Shown in pieces: positions 18,787 to 37,920 of a stretch of DNA of 44,098 bases. The notes beneath the pieces were generated by a model that saw only the letters and a list, made by a program, of their open reading frames with translations, was not told where the DNA came from and ran no database searches. The DNA comes from Flammeovirgaceae bacterium (lineage in GTDB: Bacteria; Bacteroidota; Bacteroidia; Cytophagales; Flammeovirgaceae): assembly GCA_019634305.1 (NCBI GenBank), contig JAHQVQ010000070.1:1-44098 (forward strand), in the 5' to 3' direction. Made by a program: the position numbers and the translations under genes. How positions within the stretch are numbered: the first letter of the stretch is position 1; every line of letters begins with the position of its first letter.

Positions 18787-18941
18787 TTTTGAGAAAAAAA
18801 AATTAGAAAAAATCTCAAAATAAGTGTTATTACCCCATTTGTTACCCCAAAAATTAAGCCCTCAGGCTGTATTATTGGGTATTCATGCTTTTTAAAGGCA
18901 ATAAAACTTACCCAGATTTTTACACAAACAACAGCTTCAAT

Positions 18942-20291
18942 ATGAAAAATAACAGACGAAAATTTATAAAGAAATTAGGAATAGCAGGTGCTTCCGCAGT
19001 TACTGCAACTGGGCTTCCTTTAGAAGGAAATTCAAAACAATTAACTTACCTTAAGAGAACAAATGGACTTTCCGATTCCACAGATATTAACCTTGCGATT
19101 ATTGGGGCAGGGGGAATGGGAAGTGAAGATACCAATACCGCTTTAAAGCATGAAGGTGTGAAATTAGTAGCTGCCTGTGATTTATATCAGGGAAGATTAG
19201 AAAGTGCCAAGGAGAAATGGGGCGCTGATATTTTCACCACTACCGATTATAAAGAAATCCTGAAAAGGAAAGATATTGATGCAGTGATTATCGGTACGCC
19301 TGATCACTGGCACAAGCAAATTTCCATTGATGCCTTAAATGCTGGCAAAAATGTTTATTGTGAAAAACCAATGGTGCATTCTGTATCAGAAGGTCAGGAT
19401 CTGATCAGTGCCTGGAAAAAATCTGGAAAGATCTTTATGGTAGGAAGTCAGGGAATGTCTTCTTTAGGAAATGAAAAAGCAAGACAACTTTTAGCTGAGG
19501 GAGCCATAGGAGAGTTGAATTACGCAGAAGGTTTTTGGGCAAGACACTCTCCAACAGGAGCCTGGCAATATCCTATTCCAAAAGATGCTTCAGAAAAAAC
19601 GGTAGATTGGAAAAAATACATTGCCAATACTACTAAAAGAGATTTTGATGCCATGAGATTTTTCCGATGGAGAAATTATAGAGATTATGGTACTGGAATG
19701 TCAGGTGATTTATTTGTGCACTTATTTTCCAGCCTGCATTTCGTAACCAATTCTATGGGACCAAATAAAATTAGCGCCATGGGTGGCTTACGGTATTGGA
19801 AAGATGGCAGAGAAGTTCCTGATGTATTATTAGGCATGTTCAATTATCCTGAGGCAGAAGCTCATCCAGCTTTTAACCTTTCATTAAGATGCAACTTTGT
19901 GGATGGCACGAGTGGCTCTACTTACTTGAAATTGGTAGGAAGTGAAGGTTCTATGGATATCAAATGGGAAGAGGTAGTACTTAAAAGAAATAACTTTAGC
20001 ACAGACGATCCATTTGCCTTAGCCAAAGCTAAAGAAGCGGGAATTGAGATTACTGATAGGAAAAAAATGGTTCCACCAGAAGAAATTACATATAAGGCGG
20101 AAAAAGGCTATAAAGGTGCTCATTACGACCATTTCAGAAACTTTTTTACTGCCATCAGAACTGGTGGTACAGTTGCAGAAGATCCAATATTCGGATTCAG
20201 GGCAGCGGCTCCAGCATTACTTTGTAATGACAGCTATTTCCAGGACAAATTTATCAAATGGGATCCTGAAAAAATGGAATTAGTTAGCTAA
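18942..20291 (+). CDS. Tat-exported Gfo/Idh/MocA family oxidoreductase
   Basis: I choose ATG 18942 (449 residues) because it puts a twin-arginine signal, NNRRKFIKKLGIAGAS, at the N-terminus. The longer frame from 18885 adds 19 unlike residues. The Rossmann motif IIGAGGMGSED and the dinucleotide/active-site motif NVYCEKPMVHS are clear. The C-terminal domain has the HYDHFRNFFTAIRTG stretch typical of periplasmic members in Bacteroidota and Planctomycetes. Such enzymes use a tightly bound NAD to oxidise or reversibly process sugars. Two DUF1080 proteins follow, which fits a pathway where a sugar is oxidised at C3 and then cleaved as a 3-keto-glycoside. The substrate is not known. Confidence 0.85.
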   Translation: MKNNRRKFIKKLGIAGASAVTATGLPLEGNSKQLTYLKRTNGLSDSTDINLAIIGAGGMGSEDTNTALKHEGVKLVAACDLYQGRLESAKEKWGADIFTTTDYKEILKRKDIDAVIIGTPDHWHKQISIDALNAGKNVYCEKPMVHSVSEGQDLISAWKKSGKIFMVGSQGMSSLGNEKARQLLAEGAIGELNYAEGFWARHSPTGAWQYPIPKDASEKTVDWKKYIANTTKRDFDAMRFFRWRNYRDYGTGMSGDLFVHLFSSLHFVTNSMGPNKISAMGGLRYWKDGREVPDVLLGMFNYPEAEAHPAFNLSLRCNFVDGTSGSTYLKLVGSEGSMDIKWEEVVLKRNNFSTDDPFALAKAKEAGIEITDRKKMVPPEEITYKAEKGYKGAHYDHFRNFFTAIRTGGTVAEDPIFGFRAAAPALLCNDSYFQDKFIKWDPEKMELVS

Positions 20292-20320
20292 TGACACTTT
20301 CAATTAAGTAGTTAGGCAAA

Positions 20321-20380
20321 ACTAAATATATTTAATTAGTGCCATAACTATTTTAAAATGAAATGAAAATACTCAGTTTA
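20321..20380 (+). repeat. Dispersed 60-bp intergenic repeat, copy B
   Basis: This copy matches 12897-12956 at 48 of 60 ungapped positions. It also has imperfect inverted ends (AATTAGTGCC near 20334 against GGTACTTATT near 20403). It sits between the oxidoreductase and the first DUF1080 gene and contains no open frame. Confidence 0.5.
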
Positions 20381-20491
20381 AAAATACCAAGAATGGAATT
20401 CTGGTACTTATTATTAATCCTGATTGGTCATTTTTCAAAACAAACAAATAGTATATAATCACTAAATTTAATTCATTTAATATCAATAAAA

Positions 20492-21244
20492 ATGAACTTC
20501 AATAAATATTTAATAATTACCGCTCTTATAAGTTTCACCCTATTTGGTTGTCAGCCGAAGCAAGCTAAAGAAGCTCCTGAAACTATAGTGGAAGAAGCTA
20601 CGGAACCTGTTTCTGAAAATAAAGGAGAATGGATTTCCCTTTTTGACGGAAAAACTGCAAAAGGATGGAGAGGATATAACCAAAGTACACTTCCCGAAGC
20701 ATGGGTAGTAGAAGATGGTACATTGAAATCATTAGGAAAAGGTGGAGATATAGGAGGCGATATCGTCTTCGGAGACATGGAATTTGAAGACTTTGAATTG
20801 CAATTGGAATGGAAAATTTCTGAAGGTGGAAACAGTGGTGTTTTTTATCATGTTCAGGAAGGAGATCAATATCATGCTCCGTATGAGAATGCTCCGGAAT
20901 ATCAGTTAATTGATGACATTGGTTTCCCTCAAAAACTGGAAGAATGGCAATCTCTTGGTGCTGACTATGCCATGTATCCAGCCGATAAAGAAAAGAAAAT
21001 TGTAAAGAAAGCGGGGGAGTGGAATTCTTCAAGAATTATCTTCCAAAAAGAAAATGCAGAATACTGGTTGAATGGTGAAAAGGTGGTAAGTTTTGTACCT
21101 TGGTCGGAAGACTGGCAAAAAAGGAGAGATTCAGGAAAATGGAAAGATATGCCTGACTATGGAAAAGCTAAAAAAGGTTTAATCGGACTTCAGGACCACG
21201 GAAGTTTCATCTTGTTCAGAAACATAAAAGTAAGACACCTCTAA
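20492..21244 (+). CDS. DUF1080 lipoprotein (3-keto-glycoside hydrolase family)
   Basis: The 250-residue protein has a lipoprotein signal with lipobox LFGC (Cys20). One DUF1080 / 3-keto-disaccharide hydrolase domain follows, a concanavalin-like jellyroll: WISLFDGKTAKGWRGYN, AWVVEDGTLKSLGKGGDIGG, FELQLEWKISEGGNSGVFYH, APEYQLID and the C-terminal GLIGLQDHGSFILFRNIKVR. Characterised relatives cleave sugars previously oxidised to 3-keto form. It is probably anchored on the envelope. Its position after a Tat-exported oxidoreductase supports the same pathway. A short inverted repeat (CAAGCA, TGCTTG at 21248-21262) follows the stop. Confidence 0.85.
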   Translation: MNFNKYLIITALISFTLFGCQPKQAKEAPETIVEEATEPVSENKGEWISLFDGKTAKGWRGYNQSTLPEAWVVEDGTLKSLGKGGDIGGDIVFGDMEFEDFELQLEWKISEGGNSGVFYHVQEGDQYHAPYENAPEYQLIDDIGFPQKLEEWQSLGADYAMYPADKEKKIVKKAGEWNSSRIIFQKENAEYWLNGEKVVSFVPWSEDWQKRRDSGKWKDMPDYGKAKKGLIGLQDHGSFILFRNIKVRHL

Positions 21245-21501
21245 CCACAAGCATGGTGCTTGACTCTTATATTGACAATCATTGAATCCATTATTTGGGT
21301 TTTGTGGCACAAAATCAGGACTTCTAAAAACAACTAGAGATACATGGAAACTGGTTGAAATAAATAGAAATAAAAAAGACTTGATATTTCTATCTTATTT
21401 CCAAAAGTTAATAGCATAAATATTCTTGTTTTTAGGTTCTGATTTTAACAAAAAAATTTACTTTCAAACCTCTAATTTCTAAACTCTAACTAAAGCAATA
21501 A

Positions 21502-22104
21502 ATGAAAAATAAATTAATTGGAATCATATTAACTATTTGCCTGGGAAGTATAACAGGTTTTGCTCAAACTACTAAACTATTTAATGGTAAAAACCTAGAT
21601 GGCTGGAAAGCTTATGGAACAGAAAAATGGTATGTAGAAAATGGGGAATTAATTTCAGAAAGTGGCCCTGATGCACAATATGGCTATTTGGGGACAGAGA
21701 AAAATTACAAAGACTATATACTCACACTTGAATTTAAACAAGAGGCAAATGGAAACAGTGGTGTTTTTATAAGGTCTTTTATTGAAGAAGGAGTGAAAAT
21801 AAATGGCTGGCAGGTAGAGGTAGCTCCAAAAGGAAATCATTCTGGGGGAATTTATGAATCATACGGAAGGGGATGGTTAATTCAACCTGATGAAAAAGGG
21901 GAAGAAGCCCTGAAAGAAGGAGAATGGAATAAAATGAAAATCAAAGTGGTAGGCTCGAAAATTACTACATGGCTAAATGGACAGAAAATTGTAGCGTTGG
22001 ATGATGAAAAAATTGGTAAAGGTGAAGGATTCATTGCACTACAAATTCACGATGGAGGGGGCATAAAAGTAAGGTGGAAAAATATTAAAGTGAAAGAATT
22101 ATAA
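21502..22104 (+). CDS. DUF1080 secreted protein (3-keto-glycoside hydrolase family)
   Basis: This is a second, smaller DUF1080 protein of 200 residues with a standard signal peptide (cleavage near GFAQ) and no lipobox. The motifs match the family: LFNGKNLDGWKAYG, WYVENGELISESG, LTLEFKQEANGNSGVFIRS and GFIALQIHDGGGIKVRWKNI. It differs clearly from the neighbour, so it is not a recent duplicate and may act on another substrate or form a pair with it. It is followed by a good hairpin terminator at 22119-22164. Confidence 0.83.
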   Translation: MKNKLIGIILTICLGSITGFAQTTKLFNGKNLDGWKAYGTEKWYVENGELISESGPDAQYGYLGTEKNYKDYILTLEFKQEANGNSGVFIRSFIEEGVKINGWQVEVAPKGNHSGGIYESYGRGWLIQPDEKGEEALKEGEWNKMKIKVVGSKITTWLNGQKIVALDDEKIGKGEGFIALQIHDGGGIKVRWKNIKVKEL

Positions 22105-25361: not shown

Positions 25362-26384
25362 CTAATTTACAATTCCCTTTGTAGACTCTCGAATAATTAG
25401 TTTGGTAGGAAGAATTTTCGTTAAAATTTCCGGCTCATCTGTTTTCAGTTGATAAAAAAACATTTTTGCCGCTTCCTGTCCCATTTGAAATGCAGGTTGT
25501 TCAATAGTTGTCAGTTTGGGATTTAGCAGTTTGGCATAGGGTTCATCATTAAAACCAATCACACTGATATCCTCAGGAATCCTCAATCCCTTCTCCCGAA
25601 TGGCAGCCATAGTGCCCATCCCTATCCTGTCGTTAATACAAAAAAATGCATCTGGAGGTTCAGGCATTTCCAACATTTTTTTAGCATTTGAAAAACCCAT
25701 ATCCGATCCAAATTTACAATGACTTACCAGTTTTCGATCGAAAGAAACACCTGCTTCTGCCAATGCCTTTTGGTAGCCTTTTTTTCTGGCATTGCCAATA
25801 GGTAAACTTTCTGGCCCCTGTAAATAGGCAATTCTTTTACAGCCAGTGTCAATAAGATGAGCAACTGCTACTCTTCCTGCCTCCACATTGTCAATCATCA
25901 CTTTCGAAACATTGGGTACATTAAATCCTCTATCGAATAACACCATTGGCATTCCAGCTTCCAGGATATTGTAAAAATGGCTCATTTGCTGGGTCTCTCC
26001 GGAAATAGAAGAAATTATACCATCCACCTGACTGGCCATCAGAAATTCACAGTGCAAAATTTCCCGCTCATAAGATTCATGAGTCTGACATATGATCAGA
26101 TTAAACCCTTCTTTTAATAATATATCCTCTAAACCTTTTATTAAGGTAGCATTAAAATAATAGGAAACTTCAGGAACTATCACTCCTACAGTAAAACTTT
26201 TCTGCTTTATTAGCCTTTTGGCTACCAGGTTCGGTTTATAATTCCATTTTTTGGCCAATTCCCAAATCGCTTTTTTGGTCTCCTCCCCAATCTGATAACT
26301 ATCTTGCAATGCTCTGGAAATTGTAGAAGGAGAAACTTTTAATTCTTTGGCTAAATCTTTTATAGTTACCCTCTTTGGTTTCAT
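25362..26384 (-). CDS. LacI-family transcriptional regulator of the D-apiose locus
   Basis: The 340-residue protein has the LacI helix-turn-helix at residues 5-27 (VTIKDLAKELKVSPSTISRA) and the hinge region near 50-60. A periplasmic-binding-protein-like sensor domain follows (VGVIVPEVSYYFNATLIKGL, MVLFDRGFNVPNVSKVMIDN, DAFFCINDRIGMGTMAAIRE, ISVIGFNDEPYAKLLNPKLT). It is divergent from the apiose genes, with a 20-bp perfect palindrome in between that is a natural operator. It most likely represses the pathway until D-apiose or an intermediate is present; the inducer is inferred. Confidence 0.88.
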   Translation of the reverse strand: MKPKRVTIKDLAKELKVSPSTISRALQDSYQIGEETKKAIWELAKKWNYKPNLVAKRLIKQKSFTVGVIVPEVSYYFNATLIKGLEDILLKEGFNLIICQTHESYEREILHCEFLMASQVDGIISSISGETQQMSHFYNILEAGMPMVLFDRGFNVPNVSKVMIDNVEAGRVAVAHLIDTGCKRIAYLQGPESLPIGNARKKGYQKALAEAGVSFDRKLVSHCKFGSDMGFSNAKKMLEMPEPPDAFFCINDRIGMGTMAAIREKGLRIPEDISVIGFNDEPYAKLLNPKLTTIEQPAFQMGQEAAKMFFYQLKTDEPEILTKILPTKLIIRESTKGIVN

Positions 26385-26514
26385 TTAAATTGAAATTTGA
26401 AGTTAGAATTCGGTGACTGGAAGATATTCCTAAGTATTTAAACTAATTTCAAAAAACTCCCTACAATATATCACTACATTAATTCTCATTAACAGCCCTC
26501 ACAACGGCTCAATG

Positions 26515-26545
26515 TTTACGCAATTTTACGCAAACCTTTGCGTAA
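26515..26545. promoter_or_regulatory. LacI-type operator: 20-bp palindrome plus an extra half-site
   Basis: TTACGCAAACCTTTGCGTAA (26526-26545) is a perfect inverted repeat with 9-bp arms and a two-base centre. An additional half-site, TTTACGCAA, lies just upstream at 26515-26523. The size and symmetry fit LacI-family operators, and the site is in the 266-bp gap between the divergent regulator and apsD. The regulator probably controls both directions. Confidence 0.7.
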
Positions 26546-26650
26546 CTTCCACCCATATTTCTTTTTTTAATCTCAAAAAAAGATGAAAATTGTCCTTTAA
26601 GGGTAGCGAACTAATTCTTTAATTCGCAGTTGCTATAATCATCATTGAAA

Positions 26651-27673
26651 ATGAAGAAATTACGATTTGCTGTAATGGGATGTGGCTTTTGGGCAAAATT
26701 CCAAATTGGAGCATGGATGGAGTTGAATGAACATGTAGAACTAATTGCCCTTTACAATAGAACCCTATCTAAAGCCGAACACCTTGCAGAATTGTATAAT
26801 GTTCCGGCCGTTTATGATGAGGCCGAAAAATTATTGGATAATGAAAAGCTGGATTTTATCGATATCATTACCGATGTAGAGACCCATCCTGTTTTCACCA
26901 AAATGGCAGCCAAAAGAGGTATTAATATAATTTGCCAAAAACCCATGGCACCTACTTTCCAACAAGCCAGGGACATGATGGAAACCTGTCGGACAAATAA
27001 AGTTGATTTTTACATTCATGAAAATTTCCGTTGGCAAAAACCTATCAGGTTATTAAAAGAAAAATTAGCTTCTGGAATCATTGGAAAGCCTTTTAAAGCC
27101 AATATCTCATTTTGCAATAGTTTTCCTGTTTTTGATAACCAGCCATTTCTTGCTGAACTGGAACAGTTTATCATCACCGATTTAGGTTCGCATATTTTGG
27201 ATGTTTCTCGATGCTTGTTTGGAGAAGCCAAATCACTTCAATGTAAAACACAGCGAGTAAACCCTAATATTAAGGGAGAGGATGTCGCCAATGTTTTTAT
27301 GGAAATGGAAGATGGCTTGCATTGTTATGCAGAAATGTCATATGCTTCCATTTTAGAAGAGGAGCGATTTCCACAAACTTTTGTATTAATCGAAGGGGAT
27401 AAAGGATCATTATATCTGGGGCCTGATTTTGAAATTAGAATCACTACAAAATCAGGAACTACAAAAGAATTGGTGGAACCGGTAATGTACGATTGGGTGG
27501 ATCCAGATTATGCTGTTGTACATTCTAGTATTTTCGATTGCAATGAGGACATTTTAATGGGAATGTTAGGAAAAAAAGTAGCTGAAACCACAGGGGAAGA
27601 TAATTTCAAAACTGTTCAATTAGTCTTTGATTCCTATCATTCTGCAGCAGAGAGTAGTATCATCAAATATTAA
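26651..27673 (+). CDS. apsD: D-apiose dehydrogenase, Gfo/Idh/MocA family
   Basis: I start the gene at ATG 26651; the longest frame uses a TTG two codons earlier. The 340-residue cytoplasmic protein has the Rossmann motif FAVMGCGFWAKFQIGAW and the cofactor/active-site motif ICQKPMAP (QKP in place of the common EKP). The stretches FYIHENFRWQKPIRLLK, FNGF-like NSFPVFDNQPFLAELEQF and TDLGSHILDVSRCLFGEA follow. As I recall the family, these are the features of ApsD, which oxidises D-apiose to D-apionolactone with NAD. The gene is first in a compact run containing all later enzymes of apionate breakdown, which strongly supports the call. No Tat or signal peptide is present. Confidence 0.78.
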   Translation: MKKLRFAVMGCGFWAKFQIGAWMELNEHVELIALYNRTLSKAEHLAELYNVPAVYDEAEKLLDNEKLDFIDIITDVETHPVFTKMAAKRGINIICQKPMAPTFQQARDMMETCRTNKVDFYIHENFRWQKPIRLLKEKLASGIIGKPFKANISFCNSFPVFDNQPFLAELEQFIITDLGSHILDVSRCLFGEAKSLQCKTQRVNPNIKGEDVANVFMEMEDGLHCYAEMSYASILEEERFPQTFVLIEGDKGSLYLGPDFEIRITTKSGTTKELVEPVMYDWVDPDYAVVHSSIFDCNEDILMGMLGKKVAETTGEDNFKTVQLVFDSYHSAAESSIIKY

Positions 27674-27683
27674 GTACTTAAAA

Positions 27684-28496
27684 ATGAGATTTGGAATAGG
27701 GACATATGCTTTTGCCTGGTCTATTGGTGTTCTGGAAAATATGCCGGAAAACCCGATGACGGTTTTCCAATTTTTGGAGGAGGCCAAAACTCTAGGTGCA
27801 GACTGTGTACAAATAGCAGACAACATTCCATTAGATCAATTTAGTCCATCTGAGTTAAATCAGATAAAAGGAAAAGCAGAGCAACTGGATTTGGAAATTG
27901 AGGTTGGCGTAAGAGGACTACTACCATATAATATCAACAAATATCTTGAATTGGCTGATTTTTTCAATTCTCCAATTTTAAGGATGGTAATATATACCCA
28001 TGAGTATCAACCAGAAATTCCGGGAATAATTGATTTAATCAATTCATATCTTCCAGCCTTTAGAGCCAAAAATGTGAAATTGGCTATTGAAAACCATGAC
28101 AGACTTAAAGCAGCCAATTTCTTAGAAATCATAAAAAATACTGATGAAAAACAAGTAGGTATCTGCCTTGATTCTGCCAATTCGATTGGGGCTGATGAAG
28201 GATTTGCAGAGGTAGTCCACCAGCTTCTCCCCTACACTATTAATCTGCATGTAAAAGACTATTCCATAAAAAGATTAAGTCATAATATGGGCTTTTCCAT
28301 TACAGGCACACCTACAGGAAAAGGCAGGTTGCCGGTGGATTGGCTAATTGAAGAATTAGAAAAATTGGGGAATTGCCAAAGTGCAATTCTGGAATTATGG
28401 CCTGCTCCTGAAAATCATATTCAGGAGACAGTTGCAAAAGAACGGGCTTGGGCTGAACAAAGTGCTAAATTTTTAAAAGCAGCATTAAAAAAATAA
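27684..28496 (+). CDS. oiaC: TIM-barrel protein, probable 3-oxo-isoapionate decarboxylase (OiaC-like)
   Basis: ATG 27684 is chosen, 10 bases after apsD; the longer frame overlaps apsD without homology support. The 270-residue protein is a xylose-isomerase-like/AP-endonuclease-2 TIM barrel: MRFGIGTYAFAWSIGV, then VQIADNIPLDQFS, LAIENHDRLKA, VGICLDSANSIGA and INLHVKDYSIKR. The Glu, Asp, His and Glu in the last motifs would bind a metal ion. In known D-apiose loci a protein of this type decarboxylates 3-oxo-isoapionate to L-erythrulose. An isomerase or epimerase role cannot be excluded, particularly because the locus also has the kinase/RuBisCO-like route for the same compound. Confidence 0.6.
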   Translation: MRFGIGTYAFAWSIGVLENMPENPMTVFQFLEEAKTLGADCVQIADNIPLDQFSPSELNQIKGKAEQLDLEIEVGVRGLLPYNINKYLELADFFNSPILRMVIYTHEYQPEIPGIIDLINSYLPAFRAKNVKLAIENHDRLKAANFLEIIKNTDEKQVGICLDSANSIGADEGFAEVVHQLLPYTINLHVKDYSIKRLSHNMGFSITGTPTGKGRLPVDWLIEELEKLGNCQSAILELWPAPENHIQETVAKERAWAEQSAKFLKAALKK

Positions 28497-28500
28497 AGAA

Positions 28501-29760
28501 ATGGAAGGAAAAAGGATAAAAGCCAACTACTTGATTGAGACCGCCTTTCCGCTTGAAAAAGCTGCAGAAACTATGGCTGGTGAACAATCTTGTGGAACTT
28601 TTGTCCGCACTCCAGGAGAGACTCAAGAACTAAAAGAAAACCACAGTGCCAGAGTGGAAAGTATCACTGAACTCAATTATGAGGGAGAACCATCTTTACC
28701 AGGAGCCAAATTTCCCAAAGAAAATGGTAAAGTAAGAAGAGGGTTGGTTGCTTTAAGCTGGCCATTGGAAAATATTGGGTTTCATCTACCCAACCTGATG
28801 GCGACTGTAGCTGGAAATTTATTTGAACTAGGGGCTTTTTCAGGCTTAAAGTTATTGGATTTTGATTTACCTGACGATTTTTCTCAAAAGTACACAGGTC
28901 CGAAATTTGGAATTGACGGTACCAGAAAATTAACTCAGGTGGAAAACCGACCTATCATTGGAACCATCATCAAACCAAGTGTGGGATTAACCCCTGAAGC
29001 CACTGCCCAACAAACCAAAACACTTATTGAAGCTGGTCTGGATTTTCTTAAAGACGATGAATTGATGGGAGATGCCCCACATTCCCCTTTCGAGAAAAGA
29101 GCAGATGCGGTAATGGAGGTCATTAATTGTCATGCCCAAAAAACTGGTAAAAAGGCCATGTTTGCCTTTAACATCAGTGGAGGTATTGATGAAATGAAAA
29201 GGAGACACGATTATGTGTTAGAAAAAGGAGGAACTTGTGTGATGGTAAGCATCAATTGGGTGGGAATAAGTGGTTTATTAAAATTGAATGAATTCACCCA
29301 ATTACCCATTCACGGACATAGAAATGGTTGGGGAATGTTCACCCGATCACCAATTTTGGGAATGGAATTTCAAGCTTATCAAAAATTATGGAGACTAGCC
29401 GGAGTGGATCATTTGCACACCAACGGTATCCGAAACAAGTTTTGCGAGACTGATGAATCAGTAATTAAATCTATTCAGGCTTGTTTATCCGAATTTATTG
29501 GCACAAAAAATCCAATGCCAGTCCTGTCCTCAGGGCAATGGGCAGGACAAACCGTTGATACTTATCATGCCATCAAAAGCACTGATGTGATGTATGTCTG
29601 TGGCGGTGGAATAGTGGCACACCCAGATGGAATTGGGGCTGGAGTAAAAAGTTTAATGCAAGGATGGGAGGCAGCTATAAATGGAATTGATTTGGAAACC
29701 TATGCCAGGGATCATAGCGAATTAAAAACTGCTTTAAAATTTTATGGGAATCTATCATGA
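28501..29760 (+). CDS. RuBisCO-like protein acting on 3-oxo-isoapionate-4-phosphate
   Basis: The 419-residue protein is a RuBisCO large-subunit homologue. The metal-binding motif is intact: Lys184, Asp186 and Glu187 in DFLKDDE, equivalent to the carbamylated Lys201 region of RuBisCO. Lys158 in GTIIKPS matches Lys175, but the partner Lys177 is Ser160. His273-Arg274 (HGHRN), Lys313 (loop 6) and the SSG/GGG phosphate-binding stretches are kept, so it is probably an active enzyme but not a CO2-fixing RuBisCO. In D-apiose loci such proteins act on 3-oxo-isoapionate-4-phosphate, either as decarboxylase (OiaX) or as transcarboxylase/hydrolase giving 3-phosphoglycerate and glycolate. The subtype cannot be told here. 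The stop overlaps the kinase start. Confidence 0.8.
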   Translation: MEGKRIKANYLIETAFPLEKAAETMAGEQSCGTFVRTPGETQELKENHSARVESITELNYEGEPSLPGAKFPKENGKVRRGLVALSWPLENIGFHLPNLMATVAGNLFELGAFSGLKLLDFDLPDDFSQKYTGPKFGIDGTRKLTQVENRPIIGTIIKPSVGLTPEATAQQTKTLIEAGLDFLKDDELMGDAPHSPFEKRADAVMEVINCHAQKTGKKAMFAFNISGGIDEMKRRHDYVLEKGGTCVMVSINWVGISGLLKLNEFTQLPIHGHRNGWGMFTRSPILGMEFQAYQKLWRLAGVDHLHTNGIRNKFCETDESVIKSIQACLSEFIGTKNPMPVLSSGQWAGQTVDTYHAIKSTDVMYVCGGGIVAHPDGIGAGVKSLMQGWEAAINGIDLETYARDHSELKTALKFYGNLS

Positions 29761-31139
29761 AGCAGCTCAACAATGACATATGGCTAAGCTATTATGGTGA
29801 TGATTTCACTGGTTCCACCGATGTGATGGAAACCCTGGCCTTGAATGGAATTCCTACCGCATTGTTCTTGCAACCTCCTACAAGTGAAGAAGTTAAAAAC
29901 TTTAAGCTTAAAAAAAATATTGGAGAAAAAACTTTAAAAGCATTTGGGGTAGCTGGAATTTCTCGAAGTCTAAATAAACAGGAAATGGAAAAGGAGTTAC
30001 TCCCTGTTTTTGAAAAAATCAGCCAGATTCCAACAGATTTCTTTCAATACAAAGTCTGCTCAACACTGGATTCCGCCCCGGATAAAGGCAATATCGGTTG
30101 GGCAACTGAATTGGCAGAACGTTTTTTCCCATCAGCAACTATTCCCATAATTATTGGAGCTCCTTTCCTTAATCGATTTGTGGTATTTGGAAATTTATTT
30201 GCCAGAATTGGTGAGGAAACCTACAGACTTGATCGCCATCCGGTTATGTCGAATCATCCAATTACTCCTATGCAGGAAAGTGATATTCGCAGACATCTGG
30301 CATTACAATCTGATAAAAAATGCCAGCTTTTTGATTTACATCATTTTGGATTAGAGGAAGAAAAAAGGAATGAAAAAATAGATGAGCTTTCTCACAACCT
30401 GGGAGATTTTTTGTTATTTGATACTTTTGATCAAAGCCATCTGGAAATAGCAGGATCCCTAATTTTTAAAATAAAGCAAAAAAAAACTCAGCTGTTAGTG
30501 GGTTCCTCAGGAATCAATTACGCTTTGGCCAAATATCTTCAAAATACAGGTACAATTAAAAAAGAAGATAAACCTCCAAAAGCAAATAAGGCGGCTCAAA
30601 TTATAGTAGTAGCAGGAAGTTGTTCTCCAATCACTGCAAACCAATTGAATTATGCATCGGAAATGGGATTTAAGGAACTACAAATTGATGTCATTGACCT
30701 TTTAAATCATCCTGAAGAAGAAATTTCTAGTATTGTTGAAATAGCATCTCAATTACTCTCAGAAAATAAAAGCCTCACAATTTTTTCGGCTAAAGGACCT
30801 AAAGATAATTCCATAGCTAAGGTAAACCAATGGATGATTGAAAATGGAAATGACAATTCAGGTAAAATTATTGGGGAAGCATTAGGCAAAATTGTAAAAA
30901 AGCTTTTAGAAGAAAATGGAAAAATAAGAGTAGTTGCAGCTGGAGGAGATACTTCAGGATATCTAGCCAGACAATTGGAGATTTATGCCCTGGAAACCCT
31001 TTACCCAATCGCACCAGGGGCACCATTGTGTGTAGCCCATTCCCATAACCCGCAATTCGATGGGTTGGAAATTTCCCTGAAAGGTGGGCAAAACGGAAAA
31101 GAAAATTATTTCCAAGCCATATTGAATGGTCAATCTTAA
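29757..31139 (+). CDS. oiaK: DUF1537-family sugar-acid kinase, probable 3-oxo-isoapionate kinase
   Basis: The 460-residue protein has the two-domain DUF1537 layout. The N-terminal substrate domain contains YYGDDFTGSTDVMETLALNG and the C-terminal nucleotide domain contains IVVAGSCSPITANQLNYA, RVVAAGGDTSGYLARQL and LEISLKGGQNGKENYF. The family phosphorylates four- and five-carbon sugar acids. In this setting the substrate is expected to be 3-oxo-isoapionate, feeding the RuBisCO-like enzyme. Its ATG overlaps the RuBisCO-like stop (ATGA), so the two proteins are translationally coupled. Confidence 0.75.
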   Translation: MKQLNNDIWLSYYGDDFTGSTDVMETLALNGIPTALFLQPPTSEEVKNFKLKKNIGEKTLKAFGVAGISRSLNKQEMEKELLPVFEKISQIPTDFFQYKVCSTLDSAPDKGNIGWATELAERFFPSATIPIIIGAPFLNRFVVFGNLFARIGEETYRLDRHPVMSNHPITPMQESDIRRHLALQSDKKCQLFDLHHFGLEEEKRNEKIDELSHNLGDFLLFDTFDQSHLEIAGSLIFKIKQKKTQLLVGSSGINYALAKYLQNTGTIKKEDKPPKANKAAQIIVVAGSCSPITANQLNYASEMGFKELQIDVIDLLNHPEEEISSIVEIASQLLSENKSLTIFSAKGPKDNSIAKVNQWMIENGNDNSGKIIGEALGKIVKKLLEENGKIRVVAAGGDTSGYLARQLEIYALETLYPIAPGAPLCVAHSHNPQFDGLEISLKGGQNGKENYFQAILNGQS

Positions 31140-31177
31140 CTCATAAAATATTAAGCATAATCTAAAACACAAAAAAA

Positions 31178-32005
31178 ATGACAAAAGTAACTATTGTTGG
31201 TGCAGGAGGAAAAATGGGTTGCAGACTTACGGACAATCTAAAAGATTCCAATTTTGACATGACTTACCTTGAAGTCAGTCCGGAAGGAATAGAAAGAGTA
31301 AAATCCAGAGGAGTGGAAGTTTCACAAGCCAAAGATGTAGTGCCAGAGGCTGATTATGTAATTTTCGCTGTTCCGGATATTGCCATCAAATCGGTCACTT
31401 CTAAAATTGTACCTATGATGAAACCTGGAGCAGTTGGAGTAAGTCTTGACCCAGCAGCACCATTAGCTGGACACCTTTTTGCCCGTGAAGATATTTCTTA
31501 TTTCGCTTCGCATCCTTCTCATCCCTCAGTGTTCAATTGGGAGCCTAATGAAAAAGCACATCTCGATTATTTTGGAGGAATTTCCGCTAAGCAAAGTATT
31601 GTTTGTGCTTTAGTTCAGGGACCAGAAGAAGTGTATCAAGCAGCAGAAGAATTGGCCAAAATCATGTTTGCTCCTGTCACTGTTTCCCACAAAATCACTA
31701 TTGAGCAAATGGGTATTTTGGAACCTGCACTTTCCGAGACTTTCGGTGCTGCAGTTGTTACTGTATTAAAAGAAGGAGTGGATAGAGTAGTAGAATTGGG
31801 AGTTCCCAAAGAAGCCGCTTATGATTTCTTTTTAGGACACATCAATATAGAATTGGCACTGCTTTTCAATCAATTACCAGGTGGCCAATTTTCCGATGCT
31901 GCTTTGAAAGCTATAAATATTGGAAAAGGTTTAATTTTCAGGGATAACTGGAAGGATGTATTTGAATCCAAAAGTGTAAAGGAACAGATTAATGCAATTA
32001 CTTGA
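31178..32005 (+). CDS. apnO: D-apionate oxidoisomerase
   Basis: The 275-residue protein has an N-terminal Rossmann fold (VTIVGAGGKMG, residues 5-14). A C-terminal helical domain related to 6-phosphogluconate dehydrogenase and ketol-acid reductoisomerase follows, with FASHPSHPSVFNWEP and MGILEPALSETFGAAVV. Within the apiose locus this architecture marks ApnO. ApnO oxidises D-apionate and migrates its hydroxymethyl group to give 3-oxo-isoapionate. The gene starts 38 bases after the kinase. It is the last gene before the inserted miniature element. Confidence 0.78.
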   Translation: MTKVTIVGAGGKMGCRLTDNLKDSNFDMTYLEVSPEGIERVKSRGVEVSQAKDVVPEADYVIFAVPDIAIKSVTSKIVPMMKPGAVGVSLDPAAPLAGHLFAREDISYFASHPSHPSVFNWEPNEKAHLDYFGGISAKQSIVCALVQGPEEVYQAAEELAKIMFAPVTVSHKITIEQMGILEPALSETFGAAVVTVLKEGVDRVVELGVPKEAAYDFFLGHINIELALLFNQLPGGQFSDAALKAINIGKGLIFRDNWKDVFESKSVKEQINAIT

Positions 32006-32384
32006 TAAGGGAAAAAATATTCTCTGGATGGTTGGGGATGATCGTAATACTGAAAATGATGAAAGTTTTATATTAGCAATATATCCCTAGGTTAAACGCA
32101 TCAAATTTTTAGATAGCTCTTAGAAGGAAGTTAGAACAGGTTTTAATAATTTTATTTTTTGAATTAAAAAATAAAATCGAGCCTCATAAGCTCCAAATAG
32201 TGTTTGAATATTTTCATGCGTTTAACCTAATATATCCCTTATGGCAGAAATTTCTCCTTAAATATTAGTAAATTGAAGTCAAAGAAATGGGTCTGCACCC
32301 AGTATAGGAGAGAGTTTGGAATTGGAAGAAATTAGTTGTGAGCTTTCAAAAAGCTTCAGTTTTTATAAAACGAGTAAATAGAAA
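32006..32384. other. 379-bp gap inside the apiose gene run
   Basis: The gap between apnO and apnL has no gene. It holds the 140-bp MITE-like element (32089-32228) with its flanking duplication, listed separately. The remaining parts are AT-rich without a recognisable promoter. Confidence 0.7.
32089..32228. mobile_element. 140-bp MITE-like element with 13-bp TIRs and 11-bp target duplication
   Basis: The ends are AGGTTAAACGCAT (32089-32101) and the exact reverse complement ATGCGTTTAACCT (32216-32228). Directly outside on both sides is the same 11-mer, AATATATCCCT (32078-32088 and 32229-32239), as left by a transposition event. No transposase is encoded. In the middle a perfect 12-bp AT-only hairpin (32149-32160 with 32166-32177, loop GAATT) is present. 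A target duplication of about 11 bp would fit mobilisation by an IS4-type transposase, which is an inference. Confidence 0.8.
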
Positions 32385-34319
32385 ATGATTTCGAAAGAAA
32401 TTTTATACTATGGGAATGAAAAGCCTTTAAAACCTGCAAAGGATTTAAGGGCCGGCCCGTTTCGTATGCTTTATGAAAATGGCTTTTTGAGGTACATAAA
32501 ATTGGGCAATTCTGAAGTACTGCGGATGATTTATTTTGCCCTTCGAGACCCAAACTGGGGTACTATCGAGGGAAGAATTGAATTTGAAAAAATTCAGGTT
32601 GGAGAAAAATCATTCTCTATTAATTACGAATGGCATTCTGAAAATTTTGCATTCCCATTTATATGGAGTTGTCAGTTGATAGGAAAAGAAAATGGGGAAA
32701 TATCATTTGAAATTAAAGGCAAAGCATTAGCCAGTTTTAAAAAAAACAGAAGTGGATTTTGTATACTACATCCTATTACCGAATGCGCTGGAGAACCTTG
32801 TGAAGTAAAATTGGTTGATGGAAAAACCACTAAGGGAAAATTCCCAAAAAATATTAGTCCGCATCAGCCTTTTATTGATATGAAGGCTATTTCCTGGAAA
32901 CCTGATAGCAAGACTGAGGTCATATTGGAGTTTCAGGGAGATACATTCGAAATGGAAGACCAGAGAAACTGGACGGATGATTCCTACAAAACCTATTGTA
33001 CACCTTTAGGTTTACCCTTTCCTGAAGAACTCCAAAAAGGAGAAGAAGTTTATCAATCTATCAAACTAAAAATAGCATCCCAGTATTCTTTGCAAATTGA
33101 AGAAGAAAATCAAGTCATTGAACTCATTCCAGGTCCTGAAGATTATGGAGAAAATCCTAAAATTGGTTTAGAAAAATCAAGTACAGGTCAGGAACTTACC
33201 AAAAAAGACAATACTTTAATTAAGGCATTAAATTTTGATCATTTCCGAGCTGAAGTCGATTTAGAAAATGACAGTTGGAAAATAGTTTTAGTAGCAGCAG
33301 TTGCGGAAGCTAAAAAGCTGAAGTTGCCATTGGAACTCGTTTTATTCTTTAGTGATCATTTTGATAATGAATTAACTAAATTTTGTGCTGCTGCAACTAA
33401 AATTAGCCCAATTATTTCCCATATTCTGTTATTGCACAATGCTCATAAATCTACCCCAGAACCATTATTAGAAAAAGCAGTTGCTCATTTAAAATCAACT
33501 TTTCCGGAAGTTAAAATTGGTGCTGGAACTAATGCTTATTTCACAGAATTGAATCGGGAAAGAGTGAATGCTGAAAACCTAGATTTTGTGGCTTATTCCC
33601 TTAATCCGCAAGTTCATGCATTTGATAATGATTCTCTCACTGAAACACTGACAGCACAGGCTTATACAGTAAAAAGTACTAAGGCCTATTTTCCTAATAA
33701 AGACGTTTTTATTTCTCCAATTACCTTAAAACCAAGGTTTAATCCAAATGCAACTTCAGAGGAAATAGCTATTTCTCCTGATGTTTTACCAGACCAGGTC
33801 GATAAAAGACAGATGTCACTTTACGGAGCTGCCTGGACTATGGGAAGCCTGATTGAACTAAAAAAATCAGGGGTGAAAAGCATTACTTATTTTGAAATTT
33901 TTGGCTGGAGAGGAATTATGTTTGGGCAATTTGAGCCTGATTTAAGCGATCAATTTTATGCAAAAAAAGGAATGTTGTTTCCTTTATATCATATTTTAAA
34001 ATTATTCCTTAAAAATAAAAAAGCCAGGTGGTTACCTTTAAAAGCTTCCCATCCTTTGAAAGCTAAAGGAATTATTTTTAAAACAGGTAGTTCCCGAGAT
34101 GAATTGCTGGTGTCTAACTATAGTGGAACGGAAATTTCTGTTCAATTAGAATTAAAAGAAGAAAATTGTTGGATTGGTTTTTTGGATGAAAATAATGTAA
34201 AAGATGCGTGGAAAGATCCTGATTTTTTTGAAAAACTTACTCTAAATAAATACGAAAACTCAAACAAATGCTTAACCTTAAAAATTAAGCCCTATGGGAT
34301 TGCCTATGGAAAAATATGA
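32385..34319 (+). CDS. apnL: D-apionolactonase
   Basis: The 644-residue cytoplasmic protein has no signal peptide or membrane segment. It matches what I know of the ApnL family: RSGFCILHPITECAGEPCEV, FPKNISPHQPFIDMKAISW and FEMEDQRNWTDDSYKTYCTP are highly characteristic stretches. The middle part (about 290-560) resembles a TIM barrel with KIGAGTNAYFTELNR and VAYSLNPQVHAFD. ApnL hydrolyses D-apionolactone, the product of ApsD, to D-apionate. The last 14 bases overlap the start of the ABC ATPase, so it belongs to the same transcript as the importer. Confidence 0.75.
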   Translation: MISKEILYYGNEKPLKPAKDLRAGPFRMLYENGFLRYIKLGNSEVLRMIYFALRDPNWGTIEGRIEFEKIQVGEKSFSINYEWHSENFAFPFIWSCQLIGKENGEISFEIKGKALASFKKNRSGFCILHPITECAGEPCEVKLVDGKTTKGKFPKNISPHQPFIDMKAISWKPDSKTEVILEFQGDTFEMEDQRNWTDDSYKTYCTPLGLPFPEELQKGEEVYQSIKLKIASQYSLQIEEENQVIELIPGPEDYGENPKIGLEKSSTGQELTKKDNTLIKALNFDHFRAEVDLENDSWKIVLVAAVAEAKKLKLPLELVLFFSDHFDNELTKFCAAATKISPIISHILLLHNAHKSTPEPLLEKAVAHLKSTFPEVKIGAGTNAYFTELNRERVNAENLDFVAYSLNPQVHAFDNDSLTETLTAQAYTVKSTKAYFPNKDVFISPITLKPRFNPNATSEEIAISPDVLPDQVDKRQMSLYGAAWTMGSLIELKKSGVKSITYFEIFGWRGIMFGQFEPDLSDQFYAKKGMLFPLYHILKLFLKNKKARWLPLKASHPLKAKGIIFKTGSSRDELLVSNYSGTEISVQLELKEENCWIGFLDENNVKDAWKDPDFFEKLTLNKYENSNKCLTLKIKPYGIAYGKI

Positions 34320-35856
34320 AAATGATATTAAACTAAAACTGACCAACATAACCAAAATTTTCCCTGGGGTTGTTGCCCTCGATGATGTAAGCCTGGAACT
34401 GAAAACTGGAGAAGTTCATGCCCTTTGTGGAGAAAATGGTGCTGGGAAAAGTACGCTAATGAATGTACTTTCAGGTAATCATCAACCAGATGAAGGGGCG
34501 GTTATTTTAAGAGGTGATAAAGTGGATGTTCCTAATCAGCTGGTTGCTCAAAAGCTGGGTATTGGTATTGTTTATCAGGAAAGAAGTCTGGTCAATGACC
34601 TTTCTGTGGCTGAAAATATTTATGCTGGAAATCAACCTACCAATCGCTGGGGAATCATAAATTTCAAAAAACTTTTTGCCCAGGCAAAAGTATTGTTAGC
34701 AAAATTGGGCATGGCAGATATTGACCCTAAAACTAAACTGGAATACCTTTCTCCTGGAAAACAGCAAATGGTAGAAATTGCCAAAGCACTTTCCCAAAAT
34801 CCGGAGATTCTTATTCTGGACGAACCCACTGCCTCCATCTCGGAAACTGATGCAAAAGTTTTGTTTCAAATTATTCATTCACTCACTCAAGAAGGTGTCG
34901 CTGTGATTTACATTTCCCATAGAATGTCGGAGATTTTTCAAATTGCTGATCGTGTTTCAATCCTGAAAGATGGAAAATATCAAGGAACAAGGATAATGAG
35001 TGAAATTTCTGTGGATGATATTATCCGACTGATGGTAGGCAGAGATTTGGTGAAACAGGACTATCAAAGCCATGTAGGTGAAGAGGTCATTCTAAAAGCT
35101 GAAAATTTCAATGGTCCAGACTTTCTTAATATCTCATTTGAATTGAAAAAAGGAGAAGTTCTAGGATTGGCTGGTTTGGTTGGAGCCGGACGAACGGAAT
35201 TGGCCAGGGCAATTTTTGGTGTAGATAAAAAATATGAAGGTGAGCTAACCCTCAATCAAAATCCAGTGAAAATTAATCATCCTATGGATGCCATGAAATT
35301 GGGAATTGGTTATTTACCCGAACACAGAAAGGAACAAGGTTTATTTTTGGAAATGACAGTTGAGGAAAACATTGTAGCTACTAATTTGGATGTAGCTGTG
35401 GAAAATAAATTGTTGCAGTTTTCAAAAATCAGTGATGTTGCCAATTCTTACATTCAGAAACTGGGGATTAAAACACCAGATTCTAAACAGAAAGTAGTGA
35501 ACCTTAGTGGGGGAAATCAACAAAAAATTGTATTGGCCAAATGGCTTTTGCTCAACCCAAAAGTACTCATTGTAGATGAGCCAACTCATGGTGTAGATGT
35601 AGGAGCAAAGGCAGAAATCTATGCCATTTTGAAAGAACTCACTGAAAAAGGGACTTCTATTATCATGATTTCTTCTGAATTGCCCGAATTGCTTAGCCTG
35701 AGTGATAGAATACTGGTATTATGTAATGGCAATCTGACCGCAGAATTACCAAAAGAGGATTTTTCGGAGGAAAAAATTATGCATTTTGCTTCAGGTACTA
35801 AAAATATGTTTAACAAAAATTCAGAGAAAATAGGGCAACCTGTTTCTGCAAATTAA
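34306..35856 (+). CDS. Sugar ABC importer ATPase (RbsA type, two nucleotide-binding domains)
   Basis: The start is placed at ATG 34306 (516 residues); a second ATG four codons upstream also lies inside apnL. The first ATPase domain has Walker A CGENGAGKSTLMNVLSG, signature LSPGKQQMVEIAKAL and Walker B ILILDEPTASI. The second domain has the usual degenerate Walker A (GLVGAGRTELARAI), signature LSGGNQQKIVLAKWL and Walker B VLIVDEPTHGVDVG. This matches the RbsA/MglA/XylG family that drives pentose and hexose uptake. With the downstream permease and binding protein it forms a complete importer, most likely for D-apiose. Confidence 0.9.
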   Translation: MEKYENDIKLKLTNITKIFPGVVALDDVSLELKTGEVHALCGENGAGKSTLMNVLSGNHQPDEGAVILRGDKVDVPNQLVAQKLGIGIVYQERSLVNDLSVAENIYAGNQPTNRWGIINFKKLFAQAKVLLAKLGMADIDPKTKLEYLSPGKQQMVEIAKALSQNPEILILDEPTASISETDAKVLFQIIHSLTQEGVAVIYISHRMSEIFQIADRVSILKDGKYQGTRIMSEISVDDIIRLMVGRDLVKQDYQSHVGEEVILKAENFNGPDFLNISFELKKGEVLGLAGLVGAGRTELARAIFGVDKKYEGELTLNQNPVKINHPMDAMKLGIGYLPEHRKEQGLFLEMTVEENIVATNLDVAVENKLLQFSKISDVANSYIQKLGIKTPDSKQKVVNLSGGNQQKIVLAKWLLLNPKVLIVDEPTHGVDVGAKAEIYAILKELTEKGTSIIMISSELPELLSLSDRILVLCNGNLTAELPKEDFSEEKIMHFASGTKNMFNKNSEKIGQPVSAN

Positions 35857-35858
35857 AA

Positions 35859-36842
35859 ATGAAACTATCTCTTAAACTTTTACAAGACCGGGTAATTACC
35901 CTTTCTATTACTATTGCTGTGCTTATTATCATTAGCAGTATTATTTGGCCCAATACTTTCCCAACTTTCGATAATTTTTCCCTCGTATTGCTCAATTTAT
36001 CTATAGAAACTATTGTAGCAGTAGGCATGATGATCCTTATGATCTCCGGTTCATTTGATCTTTCTGTAGGTTCGGTAGTGGCTTTTGCTGGCGGGTTTAC
36101 TGCCTACCTCATGTATTACTGGGGAGTTTATGTTCCTGTTGCGATTATAGCCGGAATAGGAGTTTCCATTCTCATCGGCTTTATAAATGGGTTTTTAGTA
36201 GCAAGAGTGGGAATTAATCCACTCATTCAAACACTTGCCATGATGGGCATTATCCGTGGACTTGCTTTAATGGTAAGTGGAGCAGGAATCCAGAATTTCC
36301 CCGAATCATTTAACGTAATCGGTCAGACTAAAATTTTGGGTTTTCAAACCCCAGTCTGGTTCATGCTAATCATTGTTGCTCTATTTGCTTTTCTAGTGGC
36401 TAAAACTACTTTTTTTAGGAAATACTATTACATAGGTGGGAATGAAAAAGCAGCAAAACTCTCCGGAATTAGAGTAGAGAAAATGAAAATCTATTCTTTC
36501 ATCCTGATTTCTAGTCTGGCGGGATTTGCCGGAATATTACTTTCATCACGATTAGGAGCAGCCATGTCTACTTCTGGTCAGGGAATGGAGCTGAGAGTGA
36601 TTACCGCAGTAATTTTGGGTGGAGCGAGTTTACTTGGTGGTCAGGGAAAAATTCTTGGAGCAATGCTAGGAACGATATTTATGGGGCTCATCAGCAATGT
36701 TATGATCCTGGCAAGAGTTTCAGGTTACTGGCAACAAATTATCCTGGGTCTAATCCTGATTCTCGCTGTGGTAATTGATATTATCTTAAAGAAAAATGTA
36801 GGAATTGCTCCAAAAAAATATTTAAAAAAGGCAGTGAATTAG
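35859..36842 (+). CDS. Sugar ABC importer permease (RbsC type)
   Basis: The 327-residue integral membrane protein has 8 to 10 predicted helices. Family motifs are MMILMISGSFDLSVGSVVAF near residue 55, GFINGFLVARVGINPLIQTL in the middle, and AVILGGASLLGGQGKILGAM towards the end. It belongs to the BPD_transp_2 branch of ribose/galactose permeases. It starts two bases after the ATPase stop, consistent with translational coupling. Two copies would form the channel of the importer. Confidence 0.9.
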   Translation: MKLSLKLLQDRVITLSITIAVLIIISSIIWPNTFPTFDNFSLVLLNLSIETIVAVGMMILMISGSFDLSVGSVVAFAGGFTAYLMYYWGVYVPVAIIAGIGVSILIGFINGFLVARVGINPLIQTLAMMGIIRGLALMVSGAGIQNFPESFNVIGQTKILGFQTPVWFMLIIVALFAFLVAKTTFFRKYYYIGGNEKAAKLSGIRVEKMKIYSFILISSLAGFAGILLSSRLGAAMSTSGQGMELRVITAVILGGASLLGGQGKILGAMLGTIFMGLISNVMILARVSGYWQQIILGLILILAVVIDIILKKNVGIAPKKYLKKAVN

Positions 36843-36894
36843 TGGAGGGGGAAAATAAAAAATTGATTAAAGATAAAAATTAAAAATACTGAAA

Positions 36895-37920
36895 ATGAAA
36901 ACTTATCGAAAACAACTTCTTTTAATTTTATGCACTTTGCTCACTCTGGGAATTTATAGTTGCGATCCTTCAAAAGGCGCCTATTATAAAGAAAAAAAAG
37001 CTGAAGAGGAAGCCAGTGTTCCGGTAAATCCAGATGAAGAATATATCATGATTACCACCATTGTGAATTTCCCAATGTATGTCAATCATGATCAGGCAGC
37101 ATTTATTAAATGGGGAAAAAGAAGAGGCGTTCGTACCACTGTTTTAGGACCATCCGAATGGGATGTGGCTTCACAGATTTCATTTATTGAGCAGGTAATT
37201 CCTTCTAAACCAGCGGGTTTGCTAATAAACGGAACCGATCCAGCCATTGCCAATGCTATCAACATGGCAGTGGATGCTGGAATTCCAACAGTTGTTTATG
37301 ATTCAGATATTGTGAATAGTAAAAGACATGCTTTTTTAGGTACTGACTGGTATGAAATCGGGCGATGGCAAGGGGAAGCCATGGTGGAAATGATTGGTGG
37401 AAAAGGGCAAATTGCCTACATGGGTATCATTGGTTTAGCCAATATGGAAGCCGGTTTTCAGGGTTTGCTGGATGTATTGAAAGATTACCCTGAAATAGAA
37501 GTAGTAGGCAAATACGATGACAAAGCCAATGTGGAAGAAGCGGCCAGAATTACCTCCGATTTAATAAGTGCCAATCCTGATTTAGTGGGAATTTGTGGAT
37601 TTGATGCCATGAGCGGTCCTGGAATTGGTCTGGCAGTAAAAGAGGCTGGCAAAGTGGGAAAAATAAAAATCACTACTGTAGATACCGAACCAGAACATTT
37701 GAAATTGGTTAGGGATGGTGTAATACAAACCTTGGTAGGTCAGAAAAGAGAACTGTTTACCTGGTATGGTGCACAGTTCTTATACGATATGGTACACAAA
37801 CCAAATACCCTTTCTGGTGATGACGAAAAGGCAGGAATCACGAATATTCCCTTCTCAGTAAATACAGGGCTTTTTAAAATTGACAAAACCAATATTGATT
37901 TGTTTGAATCGCCTAATTAA
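36895..37920 (+). CDS. Sugar ABC importer substrate-binding lipoprotein (RbsB type)
   Basis: The 341-residue protein has a lipoprotein signal with lipobox GIYSC (Cys23), so it is probably membrane-anchored. The mature part is a type-1 periplasmic binding protein: FPMYVNHDQAAFIKWGKRRG, GLLINGTDPAIANAINMAVD, TVVYDSDIVNSKRHAFLGTD, IAYMGIIGLANMEAGFQGL and VQTL-like VIQTLVGQKRELF. It is the last gene of the apiose run and delivers the sugar to the permease. D-apiose as ligand is inferred from the adjacent enzymes. A strong hairpin terminator follows. Confidence 0.88.
   Translation: MKTYRKQLLLILCTLLTLGIYSCDPSKGAYYKEKKAEEEASVPVNPDEEYIMITTIVNFPMYVNHDQAAFIKWGKRRGVRTTVLGPSEWDVASQISFIEQVIPSKPAGLLINGTDPAIANAINMAVDAGIPTVVYDSDIVNSKRHAFLGTDWYEIGRWQGEAMVEMIGGKGQIAYMGIIGLANMEAGFQGLLDVLKDYPEIEVVGKYDDKANVEEAARITSDLISANPDLVGICGFDAMSGPGIGLAVKEAGKVGKIKITTVDTEPEHLKLVRDGVIQTLVGQKRELFTWYGAQFLYDMVHKPNTLSGDDEKAGITNIPFSVNTGLFKIDKTNIDLFESPN

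Follow-up and report, generated by a model that had tools for sequence, protein, structure and literature searches.

We identify a candidate D-apiose locus in a 44,098-bp stretch of DNA, hereafter the window, which is an entire contig (JAHQVQ010000070.1) of the draft genome of a Flammeovirgaceae bacterium (G000; 5.43 Mb, 461 contigs, 84.7% complete). The locus consists of a LacI-family regulator gene diverging from nine plus-strand open reading frames (ORFs; 26645–37920). We propose, with a probability of about 0.62, that it is a LacI-controlled operon for uptake and oxidation of D-apiose in which a RuBisCO-like protein (RLP) acts like OiaT. The D-apiose pathway itself is already known; the window locus is a variant with a distinct RLP and an additional TIM barrel.

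Substrates and reactions are assigned here from family and context. An ATP-binding cassette (ABC) importer would take up D-apiose, ApsD would convert it to apionolactone, ApnL would open the lactone, and ApnO would oxidise and rearrange D-apionate to 3-oxo-isoapionate. The OiaK-like kinase would then form the 4-phosphate, which the RLP may split, as OiaT would, into 3-phosphoglycerate and glycolate. These steps follow the oxidative pathway reportedly set out by Carter et al. in 2018, whose OiaK/OiaT version is said to use ApsD, ApnL, ApnO, OiaK and an RLP and to need neither EryH nor EryI. Passages of PMC6302742 concern two RLPs of the D-apiose pathway, from A. radiobacter K84 and X. autotrophicus; passages of PMC13001218 treat apiose use by E. 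coli and mention gut Bacteroides, and a passage of PMC10103415 provided further background. Judged by title and opening of the abstract, no Bacteroidota RLP apiose locus appeared in the literature searched, a scope that most subscription papers fall outside; among the matches listed, searches with the pathway names returned unrelated acronyms.

Gene content, family assignments and distribution

The plus-strand run encodes, in order, an ApsD-like D-apiose dehydrogenase (26645–27673), a xylose-isomerase-like TIM barrel that is OiaC-like by position (PF01261; ORF 27627–28496, ATG probably at 27684), the RLP (28501–29760), an OiaK-like four-carbon acid sugar kinase of the DUF1537 type (29757–31139; PF07005/PF17042), an ApnO-like D-apionate oxidoisomerase (31178–32005) and an ApnL-like D-apionolactone lactonase (32385–34319). 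An importer of ribose/xylose/arabinose type follows, with its ATPase (34294–35856; Pfam and NCBIfam), permease (35859–36842; PF02653) and sugar-binding protein (SBP; 36895–37920), the last a probable lipoprotein by a Cys behind a signal-like stretch, with NCBIfam RhaS/XylF-like matches under cut-off. There are 4 bp between the TIM barrel and RLP genes, a 4-bp overlap of RLP with kinase, and 38 bp between kinase and ApnO; a gap of ~380 bp between ApnO and ApnL is the sole wide one, all others being short or overlapping. The ORF coordinates agree with those of the first-pass annotation, which a model had made from the letters and their reading frames, and together with Pfam and NCBIfam searches they bear out its description of packed one-strand genes with an ABC importer and a divergent LacI regulator (25362–26384, minus strand; PF00356/PF13377).

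Two of the enzymes fall within the families proposed for them. The ApsD-like protein is assigned by PF01408 and PF22725 (GFO/IDH/MocA) within an apiose locus, with 37% identity to the protein in the ApsD position of Rhizobium etli and 37–38% across three rhizobial-order locus proteins; the ApnO-like protein is assigned by PF16896 (E 9e-60) and NAD-binding matches within an apionate locus, with 47% identity to R. etli, 50% to the Ensifer OiaX locus and 45–50% across three such proteins. The kinase scores 421.3 bits against NF042436, the top of three matches (cut-off 700; model positions 4–449 of 451), and is 38% identical to its named-locus counterpart. The ApnL-like protein, which has no Pfam match, scores 340 bits against its sole NCBIfam match, NF049900 (cut-off 750; residues 6–588 on model positions 3–593 of 595), and is 31% identical to that of Ensifer. 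The RLP scores 468.8 bits against the OiaX model NF042437 (cut-off 700), its best curated family. RLP, kinase and ApnL-like protein are therefore divergent relatives of OiaX, OiaK and ApnL and non-members by the NCBI criterion: the affinity to characterised families claimed at first holds for the best-matching models, and every score lies under the equivalog cut-off. The SBP is 29% identical to that of R. etli, over 187 aa only.

Comparison with known systems places the locus beside, rather than within, them. It shares ApsD, ApnL, ApnO, OiaK and an RLP with the OiaK/OiaT pathway and differs in that its RLP belongs to a separate all-Bacteroidota clade and that it has the extra TIM barrel. With the OiaX loci of R. 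etli CFN 42 plasmid p42f (L170) and Ensifer canadensis (L046) it shares the enzyme families and a ribose-type ABC importer, whereas those loci have an OiaX-clade RLP, a NanR-type regulator and a DUF2291 gene, with no TIM-barrel match found in either; the R. etli locus also carries TpiA-like and RpiB-like genes. Operons on plasmids of Erwinia sp. E602 (L053) and Pantoea sp. At-9b (L178), which we take to be OiaC-type, likewise place a PF16896-type gene beside a PF01261-type TIM barrel; they have dihydroxyacetone-kinase, TpiA-like and RpiB genes, and no RLP or DUF1537 kinase is annotated in the stretch.

RLPs of this kind, defined by an OiaX model match at E <= 1e-60, occur in 2 of 18 family genomes and 23 of 390 order genomes, the source genome included. 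We took 20-kb stretches from 20 of these 23 (all except G334, G360 and the window's own G000) and searched them for the locus genes by tblastn at E <= 1e-8. The apiose set was found in three. The same-genus genome G012 has counterparts of all ten window genes, in unchanged order and at 74–93% protein identity, the SBP being cut by the end of the stretch; G362 has ApsD, RLP, kinase, ApnO and ApnL, and G068 has RLP, kinase, ApnO and ApnL. A scan of named genomes, covering the best 80 of 550 confirmed matches, yielded related sets in Rhabdobacter roseus, Dyadobacter bucti, Pararhodonellum marinum, Thermoflexibacter ruber and several metagenome-assembled genomes (MAGs). Because ten genes recur in order in G012 and related sets occur in other Bacteroidota, the locus is more than a chance assembly; by the same token its occurrence as a single unit, put forward at first as the new observation, is not unique, given the similar loci in Rhabdobacter, Dyadobacter, Pararhodonellum and MAGs. 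Loci were classed as apiose-type if they carried at least two of ApsD, ApnL and ApnO (21 loci) or ApnO alone (15), 36 in total.

Apiosidase-family genes in sister loci lend further support to the D-apiose assignment, alongside the family matches and the conserved gene content. The G012 locus (L024) has two intact PF13204 apiosidase-family genes between ApnO and ApnL, and G012 has seven PF13204 matches overall. At the same place the window retains two plus-strand remnants matching the first of these genes in nucleotides and protein, at 32007–32075 (57 bp at 77%; 23 aa at 57%, E 5e-8) and 32231–32320 (52 bp at 87%; 30 aa at 50%, E 5e-7). They are separated by a 142-bp element resembling a miniature inverted-repeat transposable element (32088–32229), whose 14-bp terminal inverted repeats are perfect and which has ATATATCCC at each flank. 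The short matches, split by this element, are thus the remains of a decayed apiosidase-family gene. The source genome holds at least 14 copies of the element, the window's included, that span 126 or more of the 142 bases at 96–100% (40 of 101 candidates scored), some of them at contig ends; G012, where 40 of 117 candidates were scored, yielded none. By tblastn, 7 of the 36 apiose-type loci match the two G012 apiosidase-family proteins, counting G012's own and one 53-aa match. As such matches also occur in 5 of 67 loci classed 'other', these genes are a supporting sign and not proof.

The RuBisCO-like protein and the outlet of the pathway

The RLP is not OiaX as judged from its sequence: it lies outside the OiaX clade and retains three residues of RuBisCO type that are no longer present in OiaX. 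The tree was built by a quick method from tblastn-aligned parts, with Shimodaira–Hasegawa-like approximate likelihood ratio test (SH-aLRT) support only, and has 109 rows (matches in 111 of 115 sequences, minus three duplicates, plus 3nwr). Its five OiaX-annotated rows form one clade (SH-aLRT 100), one of them (L171) with no product of ApsD, ApnO or ApnL type among its annotated neighbours. The window RLP falls in an 11-row clade containing Bacteroidota only (SH-aLRT 100), all 11 loci of which carry ApnO and/or ApnL: eight have at least two apiose markers, two have ApnO only (short contigs), and L064, also a short contig, is labelled 'other' by rule yet carries ApnL. The window RLP is 44% identical to OiaX and 58% to the Microvirga RLP; three Ancylobacter RLPs, serving as OiaT proxies from the same family as Xanthobacter, are 57–59% identical to it, and the RLPs of the Ancylobacter and Microvirga loci stand in a different clade from it. 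Residues E28, N106 and H306, which we equate with RuBisCO E60, N123 and H327, are kept in 103/104, 104/104 and 104/104 non-OiaX rows (one gap at E28) and are D, G and Q in all five OiaX rows. In true RuBisCOs, Asn and His stand at the positions aligned with N106 and H306, whereas the residues aligned with E28 come from other RLPs only. We therefore reject a plain OiaX annotation on cut-off, clade and residues; the first-pass annotation had left the protein between OiaX and OiaT, and we favour a transcarboxylase/hydrolase role of OiaT type over OiaX. The RLP clade lends itself to testing how decarboxylation and carboxyl transfer are distributed among RuBisCO-like proteins.

The surroundings of the pathway's end point in the same direction. 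To complete an OiaX or OiaC route, isomerases or a kinase for erythrulose are required, and matching outlet genes are present in the R. etli and Erwinia loci. G000, G012, G362 and G068 have one TpiA apiece, no Dak1 kinase was found in these four genomes, and EryH, EryI and LerK matches occur in 0 of 36 apiose-type loci. Locus L062 has two genes after ApnO with domains presumably of LutA/LutB type, which could handle glycolate, and GlcD-like proteins occur in all four genomes. Together these observations favour 3-phosphoglycerate and glycolate as the products. The earlier statement that the pathway is covered end to end also hinges on this proposed outlet.

A 32-row RLP clade labelled 'other' (L050, 8998–13689, and 31 related loci) appears to represent a separate pathway with an RLP and a DUF1537 kinase; counting Rufibacter, 31 of the 32 loci have tblastn matches to a Rufibacter Asp/Glu racemase-family gene and 31 to an SBF symporter. 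GH127-like genes near RLP–kinase pairs form another group, with 21 of 67 'other' loci matching the GH127 protein of L044 (10187–15364, itself included). Aceric acid was considered as a substrate of the 'other' loci and found unsupported: the L044 protein matches 5mqo, which we take to be the aceric acid hydrolase BT1003, as the last of six PDB matches. BT1003 is named in a passage of PMC10850190.

The TIM barrel and alternative readings

The TIM barrel is most likely a further pathway enzyme that uses the ApnO product, as a decarboxylase resembling OiaC or as an isomerase, and poses a specific, assayable enzyme question. It is rare: at E <= 1e-40 it was found in 2 of 395 genomes of the phylum, one being the source genome, and it occurs in 4 of 36 apiose-type loci. 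It is 27% identical to its counterpart in the OiaC-type Erwinia operon and did not group with the TIM barrels of such operons, forming its own clade (support 82/96) in a comparison with long branches and only two OiaC-position rows. The OiaC call of the first-pass annotation is accordingly not established, and we do not accept a plain OiaC annotation. Residues E136, D163, H189 and E237, presumably metal ligands, are invariant in all nine aligned sequences. A predicted structure (predicted local distance difference test score 85) has a fold matching sugar epimerases and isomerases, and PDB sequence and fold searches gave, among the matches listed, only isomerase/epimerase-type or unassigned TIM barrels.

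Several observations weigh against the proposed operon. The OiaX, OiaK and ApnL equivalog cut-offs are all missed by wide margins, and 17 of the 20 Cytophagales stretches have the RLP with no ApsD, ApnO or ApnL match, 16 of them with the kinase. Kinship to OiaT was judged through the Ancylobacter proxies, which fall in a different clade, and since E28, N106 and H306 are also present in RLPs of loci lacking apiose genes, these residues by themselves are no OiaT marker. The source genome, itself incomplete, yielded no more than two PF13204 matches, both weak (70.5 and 66.4 bits), and the GlcD-like matches are under cut-off. Absence in cis carries little weight, since a number of the 36 loci are short contigs and EryH and EryI occur in cis in only one of five OiaX loci, namely the query source; for these reasons the genome-level count of TpiA and Dak1 weighs more. 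The 'other' loci with apiosidase-family matches (L041, L074, L075, L086 and L090) count here as well, and they would suit an operon for a different branched or acid sugar, as would the spread of RLP–kinase pairs outside the apiose rule (68 of 109 tree rows are 'other', including 3nwr and the ApnL-bearing L064) and the low SBP identity to R. etli. Against such a substrate, ApnL, ApnO, ApsD and OiaK types co-occur and apiosidase-family genes lie in sister loci, and we regard it as very unlikely. That the RLP of a D-apiose operon decarboxylates its substrate to L-erythrulose 1-phosphate, as OiaX does, fits its best curated family and 44% identity; its position outside the fully supported OiaX clade, the three differing residues and the failure to find a second TpiA (EryH) in any of the four genomes make this outcome unlikely, though less so than a different sugar.

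A fork is compatible with the OiaT-like operon: beside the kinase/RLP route, the TIM barrel may act as an OiaC-type decarboxylase yielding L-erythrulose. The two readings overlap, so the probabilities of the readings considered here do not sum to one. TIM-barrel relatives accompany ApnO not only in the window but also in L024, L063, L088 and L169, the last with the order apiosidase-family gene, TIM barrel, ApnO. The L169 genome (G504, 99% complete) yielded neither an OiaK match nor a Dak1, and the RLP match found there is weak and distant (88.9 bits); a decarboxylating second branch is possible because the TIM barrel adjoins ApnO in a genome where neither OiaK nor such an RLP was found. R77 and R197 are shared with the Erwinia and Pantoea OiaC-position proteins and not with transketolase-linked ones. 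Set against this are the separate clade, 24 residues shared with transketolase-linked proteins only versus eight with OiaC-position proteins only, and a Dak1 kinase for L-erythrulose in none of five genomes, and we hold the fork as a tentative idea, somewhat less probable than its absence. The TIM barrel might instead be a D-apiose isomerase of a transketolase route; no transketolase gene is among the locus genes, and in E. coli SE15 the transketolase pair is accompanied by an FGGY-type kinase, whereas three of four transketolase-linked TIM barrels have one of DhaL type beside them. Returning to the OiaT-like operon, its fullest extension would combine in one operon a kinase/RLP route that keeps all carbon in 3-phosphoglycerate plus glycolate with a decarboxylating TIM barrel from a new OiaC-like clade, in at least three Bacteroidota lineages (window/G012, L063 and L088), and would make the Bacteroidota RLP clade a further natural RuBisCO-like enzyme performing internal carboxyl transfer; as a whole we consider this speculative and rather improbable.

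Four alphaproteobacterial loci (L048, L051, L052 and L056) have a split transketolase, a short-chain dehydrogenase/reductase or glucose 1-dehydrogenase gene, a tripartite ATP-independent periplasmic transporter and a TIM barrel 33–34% identical to that of the window, with a DhaL-type kinase adjoining in three of the four.

Candidate operator and neighbouring genes

Between the regulator and ApsD genes lies the palindrome TTACGCAAACCTTTGCGTAA (26526–26545), a good candidate for a LacI-type operator of the divergent regulator. It is a single site, read on both strands, with a chance expectation of 0.01 at <=3 mismatches, and it is identical letter for letter in the same-genus locus L024. Elsewhere in the window, positions 18885–22104 hold a GFO/IDH/MocA oxidoreductase gene followed by two genes with 3-keto-disaccharide hydrolase domains, possibly a separate 3-keto-sugar unit.

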